Of a DNA stretch of 64,000 bases, positions 42,073 to 45,366 are shown one piece after another. The first letter of the stretch is position 1. Each line of letters starts with the position of its first letter. The notes below the pieces were generated by a model that ran no database searches, was not told the DNA's origin, and saw only the letters and a list, made by a program, of their open reading frames with translations. Source of the stretch: an uncultured Caulobacterales bacterium (lineage in GTDB: Bacteria > Pseudomonadota > Alphaproteobacteria > Caulobacterales > Caulobacteraceae); the NCBI GenBank assembly GCA_903837135.1, contig CAILTK010000067.1:1-64000 (forward strand), read 5' to 3'. The translations under genes and the position numbers were made by a program.

Positions 42073-42176
42073 ACTAAAGGTGCGTCGACGGCGGCGCTGG
42101 CGCATCACGCGCCGCAGGAGGCGTTTCGTTCAGATTGCGCGCATAAAGCATGGCCCGCTTTGACGGAATCGCTCCC

Positions 42177-42276
42177 CCTCTACGTCATGCCCGGCCTCCA
42201 TGCCGGGCATCCAGGGAAACGCTGAAGGCAGGACGTCTGGATCGCCGGGACAAGCCCGGCGAAGACGGCCTTGAAG
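42177..42276 (-). repeat. Dispersed repeat copy, inverted relative to 34782-34880
   Basis: CTCTACGTCATGCCCGGCC...GGATCGCCGGGACAAGCCCGGCGAAGACGGCCTTGAAG matches the reverse complement of the other copy with few differences. Confidence 0.85.
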
Positions 42277-42348
42277 TCGCTTCCGTCTGAACGCGGCTCG
42301 CTCTGGCGGCGCTCGATCATGCGGCAGCGTCCGGGACGCCGGCCCCGA

Positions 42349-42437
42349 CTTGCCACCCGGCCCCGCCGCCGCTTACACAGCGCTCCCACATGCGGATGTG
42401 GCGGAACTGGTAGACGCACTGGATTTAGGTTCCAGCG
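42349..42437 (+). repeat. Left copy of 89-bp perfect direct repeat (candidate attL)
   Basis: CTTGCCACCCGGCCCCGCC...GGATTTAGGTTCCAGCG identical to 45239-45327; ends at the 3' side of the tRNA-Leu anticodon stem. Confidence 0.93.
42392..42437 (+). pseudogene. 5'-half remnant of tRNA-Leu(TAG)
   Basis: GCGGATGTGGCGGAACTGGTAGACGCACTGGATTTAGGTTCCAGCG then AT-rich unrelated sequence (AATTAATAGAATATC); no 3' half. Confidence 0.93.
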
Positions 42438-42642
42438 AATTAATAGAATATCTCTTGTATATCAACAGCTTAATAGACTATCAATTGAGCGTGTGTCCAA
42501 AAATGTGTCTGCGCGACCGATCTTTTGGCCCGTCGAGATCGGGCTTGCCCCGCGATCCGCCACTGAGCTGCGTGGCCGGATCAGCGGGTTGGATGGAGGC
42601 GCGAAGCCATCTAGGTTGATCTGCACCTAACGATTGGTTGAA

Positions 42643-43217
42643 ATGACAGATGACCATCCCTCTCAGACAGCCGCACCTGAAGCTGGAATTCTGACCGCGC
42701 TACTTCGAGCAAAGTTGGATCTTGATCAGCTCCGAGCATTAGAGCCCGAGGAGCGCACGCTTCTATTCCTCCTTGGCTCGGCGGCAAATCAGATCGCCCT
42801 GATTAGTCGGCTGGTTATTTTCTCCTCGAACGAAGACACACAGTCATCTTCCATCAACCGACAATAGCGAGCGCCGAAGCGGCGTTTGAGGCAGCCTCAA
42901 GCGATCCTGAGTGGGCTGACGACTGGAATTTCTACATCGGGCGGTCTCACCTGAACGCGTTCAATTTCGCGAGTGACCTTGTCGTACTGCACGCCATGAA
43001 AGCAGCGTCCGGCGAACCCGATTTGCTCTCGGCTCAAGCTAAAATCATGGGCGAGGTTCGGGTCGTGAGCGACGCGATGATTGAGTTTATCTACTCCTTC
43101 TTCGGAGCCGCTTGGCTTAAGAATTTTGGTTCGGAACTGCCGCTGGAAGTGTGCGCCGATCTGAACGCTGCGCCAGGCCTCTTTGACATCCGGCTTCCAG
43201 TTCTCGTGAATGTTTAG
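42643..43217 (+). pseudogene. Frameshifted (or recoded) ORF of unknown function, islet orfA
   Basis: Frame 1 (42643-42867) reads ...LEPEERTLLFLLGSAANQIALISRLVIFSSNEDTQ...; another frame opens at 42807 and continues VIFHQPTIASAEAAFEAASSDPEWADDWNFYIGRSHLNAFNFASDLVVLHAMKAA... to 43217. Protein-like sequence on both sides of an ACACACA tract at about 42835-42841. Confidence 0.6.
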
Positions 43218-43228
43218 GTGCCGGGTTG

Positions 43229-44119
43229 ATGACAGGGGCCGAGGATATTTCCGAGCCGGGTTACGATTGGGATTTCCTCTCGCAATCCGAGGGCGAAGCA
43301 GTTGAGACTCTAATCGAGCAGAACCGCGATTCATCCTGGGCAGCTCAACTGTTCGACAAGTTGGCTCGTGCCGGTGGCGTCCGCCGGGAGAATAAGGCGA
43401 CGATGTTCGAACTGCGATTTGCGGCGGCGGTCGCACGCGCCGGGATCGAACTTCAATATGAGGTCCCCGGCGAAGGGGAGTCGACCATCGATTTTGGTTT
43501 CGAGGCCGGCGGCGTGAGTTGGGCCGTTGAGCTTATGCGGCTCGATGAAACCGATGCGGCGAAAGCTGCCACTGTGACCGCGCGCGACGAGGAAGGCGCG
43601 GTGTGGTCGCAGAGGATTTTGTCAGACACGCGGGAGGACAAGCGCCAAACGGAGGGGGGTGAGACGCTGAAGGCGATACAGCGGATCTGCCAGAAGTGCG
43701 AGCTCGACGGGCGTCCGCACAAGTTTAAGAGCCCCCACGAAGCATTCAACATCCTTCTCGTCGACGTCCGTACCTTGTTCAACGGTGGCGACAAAGCGGA
43801 CCGGCTTCACATCGCGCTTGGGGCGATGGCGGTGCCAGGATGTTTCCGCCAGCAGTTTAGGGGCAACCCGGTCACCGGTGTCTTTGATGAAGCAACGACC
43901 CTCAAGGGCGCTAAGGAAGCACGCGAGCGGATTCACTTCATCGGCTTTGTAGAGGAGAGGGAGTTTGGGCCTGACGCTTTCGGCCCATCCATCCAGTTTG
44001 TGGCAAACCCATACTTATTCAACGACGAGGAGTCGGCCCGTGCGGCGATTGGGGCTTGGCCTCTGAAGCCGGCGGCGGTTTTGAACCTCCGGGGCGAACA
44101 CAGCGGCGGCAAAGCCTAA
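43229..44119 (+). CDS. Uncharacterised islet protein, orfB (possible PD-(D/E)XK-like pattern)
   Basis: 296-aa ORF in lower-GC sequence 11 bp after orfA; FELRFAAAVARAGIELQYEVPGEGESTIDFGFEAGGVSWAVELMRLDETDAAK has an E...D...E spacing reminiscent of nuclease-like folds (weak inference). Confidence 0.75.
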   Translation: MTGAEDISEPGYDWDFLSQSEGEAVETLIEQNRDSSWAAQLFDKLARAGGVRRENKATMFELRFAAAVARAGIELQYEVPGEGESTIDFGFEAGGVSWAVELMRLDETDAAKAATVTARDEEGAVWSQRILSDTREDKRQTEGGETLKAIQRICQKCELDGRPHKFKSPHEAFNILLVDVRTLFNGGDKADRLHIALGAMAVPGCFRQQFRGNPVTGVFDEATTLKGAKEARERIHFIGFVEEREFGPDAFGPSIQFVANPYLFNDEESARAAIGAWPLKPAAVLNLRGEHSGGKA

Positions 44120-44157
44120 CCACGATCATTCAAGCAAGTGCCGGGTGTCGCAGTCGA

Positions 44158-44272
44158 GTATTACGGTGACACTGTACGAAATGGGCGATGCTGTTGCGCC
44201 TGCAGTGTCCGCCATGTCGAGGGCGTAGACTAGGCGCGGGAGAATCTATTTCGTACAGTGTCACTGTAATAC
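44158..44272. repeat. 25-bp inverted repeats (24/25 match) separated by 65 bp
   Basis: Left GTATTACGGTGACACTGTACGAAAT (44158-44182), right ATTTCGTACAGTGTCACTGTAATAC (44248-44272). Confidence 0.9.
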
Positions 44273-44434
44273 CCAGGCTAATCCCGGGACACTATACACA
44301 AATCGGTCCAGTCAATCGCCAGCATGAGCAATCGATATAGTGTCGCGGATAGACCCGGTTGACAGGCTGGATTTCCCGGACGGCTCACACATTCAGCTGA
44401 TCCGAGCTATCGACGGCAGGATCACACTTCGAGT

Positions 44435-44716
44435 TTAAGCGGCTCTCGCCACCCGCAGCTCGATGTGCAGGCCTGCCGCCGCCAGCATGTTGACCAGGGT
44501 GTCGAGGCTGAAGAGATCGACCTTGCCGCGCACCAGATCGGAGATGCGCGGCTGGGTCACCCCCATCAGTTCGGCGGCGGCGGCCTGGCTGAGCTTCTCC
44601 TGGGCGATGTGATCGCGCAGCGCCATCATCAGCCGCGAGCGCAGCTTCATGTTCTCGGCCTGGCCGGGGTCGGCCTCGATGACGTCCCAGACGCTGGCGT
44701 AGCGTTCGTCGCTCAT
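44435..44716 (-). CDS. HigA-like XRE-family antitoxin
   Basis: LRSRLMMALRDHIAQEKLSQAAAAELMGVTQPRISDLVRGKVDLFSLDTLVNMLAAAGLHIELRV - XRE HTH typical of HigA partners of Gp49-like toxins. Confidence 0.88.
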   Translation of the reverse strand: MSDERYASVWDVIEADPGQAENMKLRSRLMMALRDHIAQEKLSQAAAAELMGVTQPRISDLVRGKVDLFSLDTLVNMLAAAGLHIELRVARAA

Positions 44717-45054
44717 GCCTTCAGCTCCTTGAGCAGGTCCTTGTACCGCCGGGTCGCCAGCTCGATGTCGGGCCGGCTGGTCCGCTGCGACTTCTTCTCG
44801 AAGCAGTGCAGGACGAAAACGGCGTCGGCGAATTTGGCCACATAGATGACCCGGAACGCCCCGGCCTCGTCGCGGACCCGTATCTCCCGAACCCCGGGGC
44901 CGATGGTGGTCATCGGCTTCCAGTCGTCGGGATCGCGCCCGTTCTGCACCAAGTCGAGCTGAAACCCCGCCTGCCGCCGGGCGGCGTCCGGAAAGGCCCG
45001 AAGGTCGTCCAGGGCGCTCCCCTGAAACACCACCGGCTTGGGGCCCTCAGTCAT
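44713..45054 (-). CDS. HigB/Gp49-like (RelE superfamily) toxin
   Basis: ALDDLRAFPDAARRQAGFQLDLVQNGRDPDDWKPMTTIGPGVREIRVRDEAGAFRVIYVAKFADAVFVLHCFEKKSQRTSRPDIELATRRYKDL; 4-bp overlap with the antitoxin gene. Confidence 0.9.
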   Translation of the reverse strand: MTEGPKPVVFQGSALDDLRAFPDAARRQAGFQLDLVQNGRDPDDWKPMTTIGPGVREIRVRDEAGAFRVIYVAKFADAVFVLHCFEKKSQRTSRPDIELATRRYKDLLKELKA

Positions 45055-45066
45055 CGCACTCCACTT

Positions 45067-45084
45067 TATACAAGATTTTGTATA
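45067..45084. promoter_or_regulatory. Palindromic operator candidate of the toxin-antitoxin operon
   Basis: TATACAA-GATT-TTGTATA perfect 7-bp inverted repeat 12 bp upstream of the toxin start. Confidence 0.7.
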
Positions 45085-45238
45085 CCCCCGCAACCATCCG
45101 CCGCCTCATCGGACACGCGCCTCACTGCCTCCTGCCGGGGTCCGTCTGAGCCGATGGGAGTCGTCCGAATTACGGTGATGGTGCACAAATCTCGCGGTGC
45201 AGGTTTGGCAGGCGGCCACGAGGCCGCGTTCTCCACAC

Positions 45239-45327
45239 CTTGCCACCCGGCCCCGCCGCCGCTTACACAGCGCTCCCACATGCGGATGTGGCGGAACTGG
45301 TAGACGCACTGGATTTAGGTTCCAGCG
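45239..45327 (+). repeat. Right copy of 89-bp perfect direct repeat (candidate attR)
   Basis: Identical to 42349-42437; includes 43 bp upstream of tRNA-Leu plus its 5' half. Confidence 0.93.
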
Positions 45328-45366
45328 CCGTGAGGCGTGGAGGTTCGAGCCCTCTCATCCGCACCA
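45282..45366 (+). tRNA. tRNA-Leu (TAG)
   Basis: GCGGATGTGGCGGAACTGGTAGACGCACTGGATTTAGGTTCCAGCGCCGTGAGGCGTGGAGGTTCGAGCCCTCTCATCCGCACCA; anticodon loop TTTAGGT; long variable arm; encoded CCA. Confidence 0.96.

Follow-up and report, generated by a model that had tools for sequence, protein, structure and literature searches.

The 64,000-nucleotide stretch analyzed here (hereafter the window; positions 1 to 64,000 of contig CAILTK010000067.1, assembly GCA_903837135.1, from an uncultured Caulobacterales bacterium of the family Caulobacteraceae) contains a 2890-bp islet inside a tRNA-Leu(UAG) gene, between two identical copies of an 89-bp sequence. This islet is probably a small mobile element that integrated here, or what is left of one, non-autonomous or decayed in the manner of a cis-mobilizable element (CIME), with a right repeat copy that most likely came in on the element. 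The left junction is, judged by its sequence, a genuine integration junction, and the right one is less secure.

An 89-bp repeat within tRNA-Leu(UAG)

A preliminary description of this locus reported an exact direct repeat at 42349-42437 and 45239-45327, composed of 43 bp of upstream sequence and the 46-bp 5' half of tRNA-Leu(UAG), and ending just past the anticodon stem. We recovered the same repeat with the same coordinates and make-up. Its 3' end falls after CTGGA-TTTAGGT-TCCAG-CG, and its start coincides exactly with the -35-like CTTGCC of a promoter-like element, TTGCCA-N18-TACACA. It is the sole exact direct repeat of at least 40 bp in the window, explaining all 50 repeated 40-mers, and the 4.95-Mb assembly of 120 contigs has just two copies of the sequence; the identity over 89 bp is beyond chance. 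As had been described, the tRNA is completed at the right copy alone: ARAGORN calls tRNA-Leu(TAG) at 45282-45366 only and does not call the left copy as a tRNA. The locus has a single tRNA by this criterion, hence no separate replacement tRNA in the islet, and the matching tRNA 3' half is found at one place in the genome, the 45282-45366 gene. The features that define the two junctions are as follows.

42349-42391, plus strand: host-side (left) copy of the tRNA-Leu promoter region, making up the opening 43 bp of the exact repeat; left flank of host-like GC content
42392-42437, plus strand: tRNA-Leu(UAG) 5' fragment forming attL; the crossover core TTTAGG(T) spans 42424-42430
42438-42491, plus strand: AT-rich P' segment from core to arm sites, 32% GC over the 59 bp after TTTAGGTTC
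42492-42510, plus strand: two arm-type repeats, TGTGTCC at 42492 and TGTGTCT at 42504
45239-45281, plus strand: right copy of the promoter region, ahead of the intact tRNA and 100% identical to the left copy
45282-45366, plus strand: complete tRNA-Leu(UAG) (ARAGORN), core TTTAGG at 45314

No integrase is encoded among the open reading frames (ORFs) of 42438-45238 according to the ORF list and Pfam, and neither a relaxase nor a coupling gene was found there by the same means. The earlier claim that the islet is non-autonomous or decayed is therefore supported.

Occurrence of the arrangement in Caulobacteraceae

We searched 390 Caulobacteraceae genomes with the tRNA 5' half. Genomes with a match mostly have a single copy, and in a few the intact gene is preceded by an additional 5' fragment in the same orientation. 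The expectation of an empty site in a close relative was borne out by the same-genus genome G001, in which a lone intact tRNA-Leu adjoins the same NfeD gene and is not preceded by a fragment. Identical repeats could also come from a local duplication, in tandem, of the region ahead of the tRNA, with unrelated DNA drifting in and no site-specific recombination; this origin is highly improbable, given that a random duplication would not end where the 89-bp repeat ends. Only slightly less improbable is an assembly chimera mixing occupied and empty chromosomes of the population. The fragmentation of the assembly would allow for one, but no shared k-mer accounts for a false join at 45238/45239, and similar complete structures are present in the few-contig genome G092 (4 contigs) and in megabase contigs of G224 and G225.

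The fragment loci sort into two groups, designated I and II. All group I left ends, that of the islet included, have in common TTTAGGTTC, a stretch rich in A and T, and a pair of TGTGTCC-type repeats. In 12 of 12 left ends (the islet and 11 others) the repeats are positioned at +68 and +80 from TTTAGG to within 1 bp, and the 59 bp after TTTAGGTTC have a GC content of 22-46% in the 11 homologous left ends. A TGTGTCC-type pair with 12-bp spacing occurs once in the 64-kb window, and the left-end pattern occurs at 13 places in 10 of the 390 family genomes, in every case at a 5' fragment and never at an intact tRNA. The islet has thus retained an attL, as CIMEs do, with the core and arm pair at the family geometry that the small members described below also show. 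Outside the Caulobacteraceae, a scan of the genome collection placed this left end, with its TGTGTCC-type arm, in Sphingomonas sp. 1F27F7B (L077) and an Alphaproteobacteria metagenome-assembled genome (MAG; L075). The final repeat bases, TTCCAGCG, are probably the element's own core, since the left end of the Phenylobacterium MAG G345 also runs TTTAGGTTCCAGCG before diverging.

Four further matches (L078, L079, L082 and L083) were rejected as left ends: each is an intact tRNA followed by a chance GTGTCC. Several first ORFs face the opposite way, and the view that every left end has its cargo driven by the tRNA promoter was abandoned on this ground.

The left-end geometry upholds the part of the preliminary description that read the islet as having integrated by a crossover in the anticodon loop. 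A tyrosine integrase of the family encoded by the tRNA-dependent islands described next probably joined the left end to the anticodon loop of the host tRNA-Leu(UAG), using the TGTGTCC arms at +68 and +80.

Large group I islands and their integrase

The large group I islands, G092b, G146, G245 and G322, are 20-30 kb in size (island loci L038/L064 for G092, L039/L061 for G146, L040/L063 for G245 and L057/L058 for G322). At their right ends TGTGTCC is found at about -97/-86, followed by TTTAGG and the host 3' half, with no 5' half. Inside this end lies a distinctive tyrosine integrase of 422-440 aa, flanked by TGTGTCC repeats, 63-68% identical to the G322 copy and scoring only below threshold against the Pfam phage integrase model. 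A complete tRNA-Leu(UAG) adjoins the integrase on the other strand. G241 (L054/L055) has the same integrase and tRNA; the right ends of G345, G034 and G241 were not found within the limits of the pattern. The large islands split the host tRNA-Leu(UAG) and bring a putative replacement, on the pattern of tRNA-dependent lysogeny (PMC10865867).

The group I integrase had no match in 50,697 phage records and has full-length matches of 44-47% identity on alphaproteobacterial plasmids. The island cargo, where examined, includes ABC-3C and TraG-like coupling proteins and is non-phage. A 54% relative of the integrase is encoded in the same-genus genome G002 (G002:C149:26777-28000; L092, L097), for which an attachment site was not found. 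The islet's own genome (G000) has no close group I integrase. The sole candidate there for a trans-acting enzyme, a 31% homologue in a tRNA-Ser stretch with neither core nor TGTGTCC nearby, was rejected. Because the genome holds only this distant relative, the integrase would have acted in trans or been lost, and the islet would be either stranded or moved in trans.

Small and 5'-side elements at the same tRNA

The group I left end also occurs, without an integrase, in two small members: G092a (2168 bp) and G291a (1973 bp). On their right side TGTGTCC at -131/-132 is followed by promoter-like sequence and then by a tRNA 5' half; this half does not differ between the two elements and is 87-89% identical to those of their hosts. 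ARAGORN accepts the hybrid of this 5' half and the host 3' half as a tRNA-Leu, with mismatches in the anticodon stem. Each directly precedes the left end of another group I element, and the group I integrase is present in both genomes, the copy at the G291 site being in two pieces. Their cargo comprises PIN/FitA and Fic genes. The islet shares with them the left end, the size class, the lack of an integrase and a right-hand promoter plus 5' half, at 45239-45327; in the islet, as in G092a, a minus-strand toxin-antitoxin pair sits close to the right end.

In group II the fragment lies to the left and the intact tRNA to the right of G225 (50 kb), G202 (42 kb), G269 (25 kb) and G224 (a 547-bp remnant). 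Immediately within the left junction G269 has a tyrosine-integrase-like gene, as do G225 and G202 judged by sequence; the Pfam phage integrase model is matched by the G269 protein and by a relative at the fragment in G056. Among G225, G224 and G202 the right-hand promoters share 81-95% identity, against 33-47% for the fragment-side host promoters, so these elements do bring the promoter and tRNA 5' half with them. The G224 remnant (L037:7477-8108) has 547 bp between a tRNA-Leu 5' fragment and an intact tRNA; both of its ends match the 50-kb element of G225, and it therefore looks like an internal deletion of that element. The 5'-side arrangement at tRNA-Leu thus has at least six further instances: G225, G224, G202 and G269, which are of phage size or remnants, and the small G092a and G291a.

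Origin of the right copy

Several observations weigh against the proposed origin of the islet, most of them at its right end. No TGTGTCC, allowing one mismatch, lies within 220 bp of the right core; the core repeat is present and the arm site is absent or degenerate, with only a weak GGTGCACAAA at -134 where the two small members have TGTGTCC at -131/-132. The promoter copies of the islet are 100% identical, as opposed to an element/host promoter identity of 23-74% in six comparable loci. The GC content of 52-64% across 42.4-44.4 kb, versus 65-74% in the flanks, supports the proposed origin, but the final ~850 bp ahead of the right copy have a host-like GC. The islet therefore differs from the small members in lacking a clear right arm, in its GC content near the right end and in its identical promoters. 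At the left end, the bases between core and arm are no closer to the family consensus than shuffled sequence. The empty site is known at the genus level (G001), with none from the same species.

The preliminary description also reasoned that, if the islet was an integration product, the incoming element carried the upstream region and the 5' half of the tRNA. This arrangement recurs in the six loci above and describes the group II elements; for the islet itself the missing right arm and identical promoters mean that the element was possibly not the source of the right copy, which may be element-borne or a later duplication.

Those three differences from the small members also keep in play an alternative of clearly lower probability: that the islet represents the left portion of a large island that split the tRNA and brought a replacement, its right part (replacement tRNA, integrase and attR) having been lost when recombination with an empty-site chromosome restored a whole promoter and tRNA and duplicated the 89 bp. 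The left end is common to the large islands, and fully identical promoters would be expected if both copies were the host's own; the absent right arm and the host-like GC near the right copy fit as well. Such an event requires, however, an illegitimate junction exactly at the -35 box without clear microhomology, and the size of the islet and the toxin-antitoxin pair near its right end resemble the small elements that carry their own 5' half.

We favor a small element that brought its own promoter and 5' half. By analogy with the two ~2-kb elements and the phage-size elements at this site, we infer that the second promoter and 5' half most likely arrived on the element, and that mobilization would have been in trans. 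A functional host tRNA would be kept because this second minimal promoter and 5' half precede the host 3' half.

Cargo of the islet

Between the junctions the islet contains the following features.

42634-43217, plus strand: two short ORFs in different frames (42634-42867 and 42996-43217), no Pfam match
43226-44119, plus strand: 297-aa cargo protein with no family assigned, without a match in Pfam, NCBIfam or PADLOC
44158-44272, strand not assigned: 115-bp sequence resembling a miniature inverted-repeat transposable element, with 25-bp inverted ends 96% alike
44435-44716, minus strand: HigA-like antitoxin, HTH_37 (Pfam E 5.5e-24)
44713-45093, minus strand: HigB-like toxin, Gp49/RelE (Pfam E 5.6e-29)

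The two short ORFs are probably one frameshifted cargo gene, the shift lying near 42850, beyond which frame 3 is still open on the 3' side; either decay or an assembly indel would account for it. The 297-aa protein has one homologue (37% identity) among 100 relatives and no plasmid match, and its fold model has a predicted local distance difference test score (pLDDT) of 36, too low for use. The HigB-like toxin is distributed sporadically among relatives, and the HigBA pair would stabilize the islet. In the left flank, 42138-42305 is an interspersed repeat with copies of 85-90% identity on at least four other contigs (C8, C14, C77 and C87) of the same genome.

Relation to known elements

A CIME is a decayed att-flanked element beside autonomous ones (PMC5704250). 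The islet resembles such elements (ICESt1-type remnants) in having flanking att repeats and no recombination or transfer genes, and the similar small elements G092a and G291a stand in tandem with autonomous islands. It differs in that the crossover is in a tRNA anticodon loop, the 5' half is duplicated and the attR arm is only putative.

The large islands share with the phages of tRNA-dependent lysogeny (Fionnbharth and relatives; PMC10865867) the splitting of a tRNA at a short core, a replacement tRNA of the same isotype and paired arm sites, but have another integrase and, where examined, non-phage cargo. The islet differs from tRNA-dependent elements in having neither its own replacement tRNA nor an integrase.

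Islands on the 5' side of tRNA genes are rare but known, making up 159 of 3919 in Islander (PMC4383910), and 5'-side integration is also documented for archaeal pTN3-type elements and a few bacterial cases (PMC8371274). As in these integrations (archaeal pTN3-type, and the rare bacterial cases of Williams 2002 and Islander), the recombinant tRNA would be expressed from an element-side promoter; the elements described here differ in having a bacterial TGTGTCC-arm integrase family, and the islet also in its lack of an integrase and its identical promoters. A literature search of limited reach gave no case of a single tRNA that hosts both islands with a spare tRNA and small integrase-less elements with that tRNA's promoter and 5' half.

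The comparisons suggest that the islet and its two relatives are non-autonomous satellites of the tRNA-breaking islands. More tentatively, small cargo cassettes (toxin-antitoxin, Fic and other genes), each with a tRNA promoter and 5' half, might be moved in trans by the TGTGTCC-arm integrase and stacked as arrays in the tRNA-Leu(UAG) anticodon loop, constituting a satellite system of these islands. The core and TGTGTCC pair provide a simple geometric signature for finding elements that integrase-based island finders would reject. The question of how prevalent tRNA-dependent lysogeny is outside actinobacteriophages has been raised (PMC10865867), and tRNA-dependent behavior is seen here in several Caulobacteraceae islands with non-phage cargo. 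The islet points to an alphaproteobacterial recombinase family carried by little-described islands that disrupt tRNA-Leu(UAG) and supply a spare copy.
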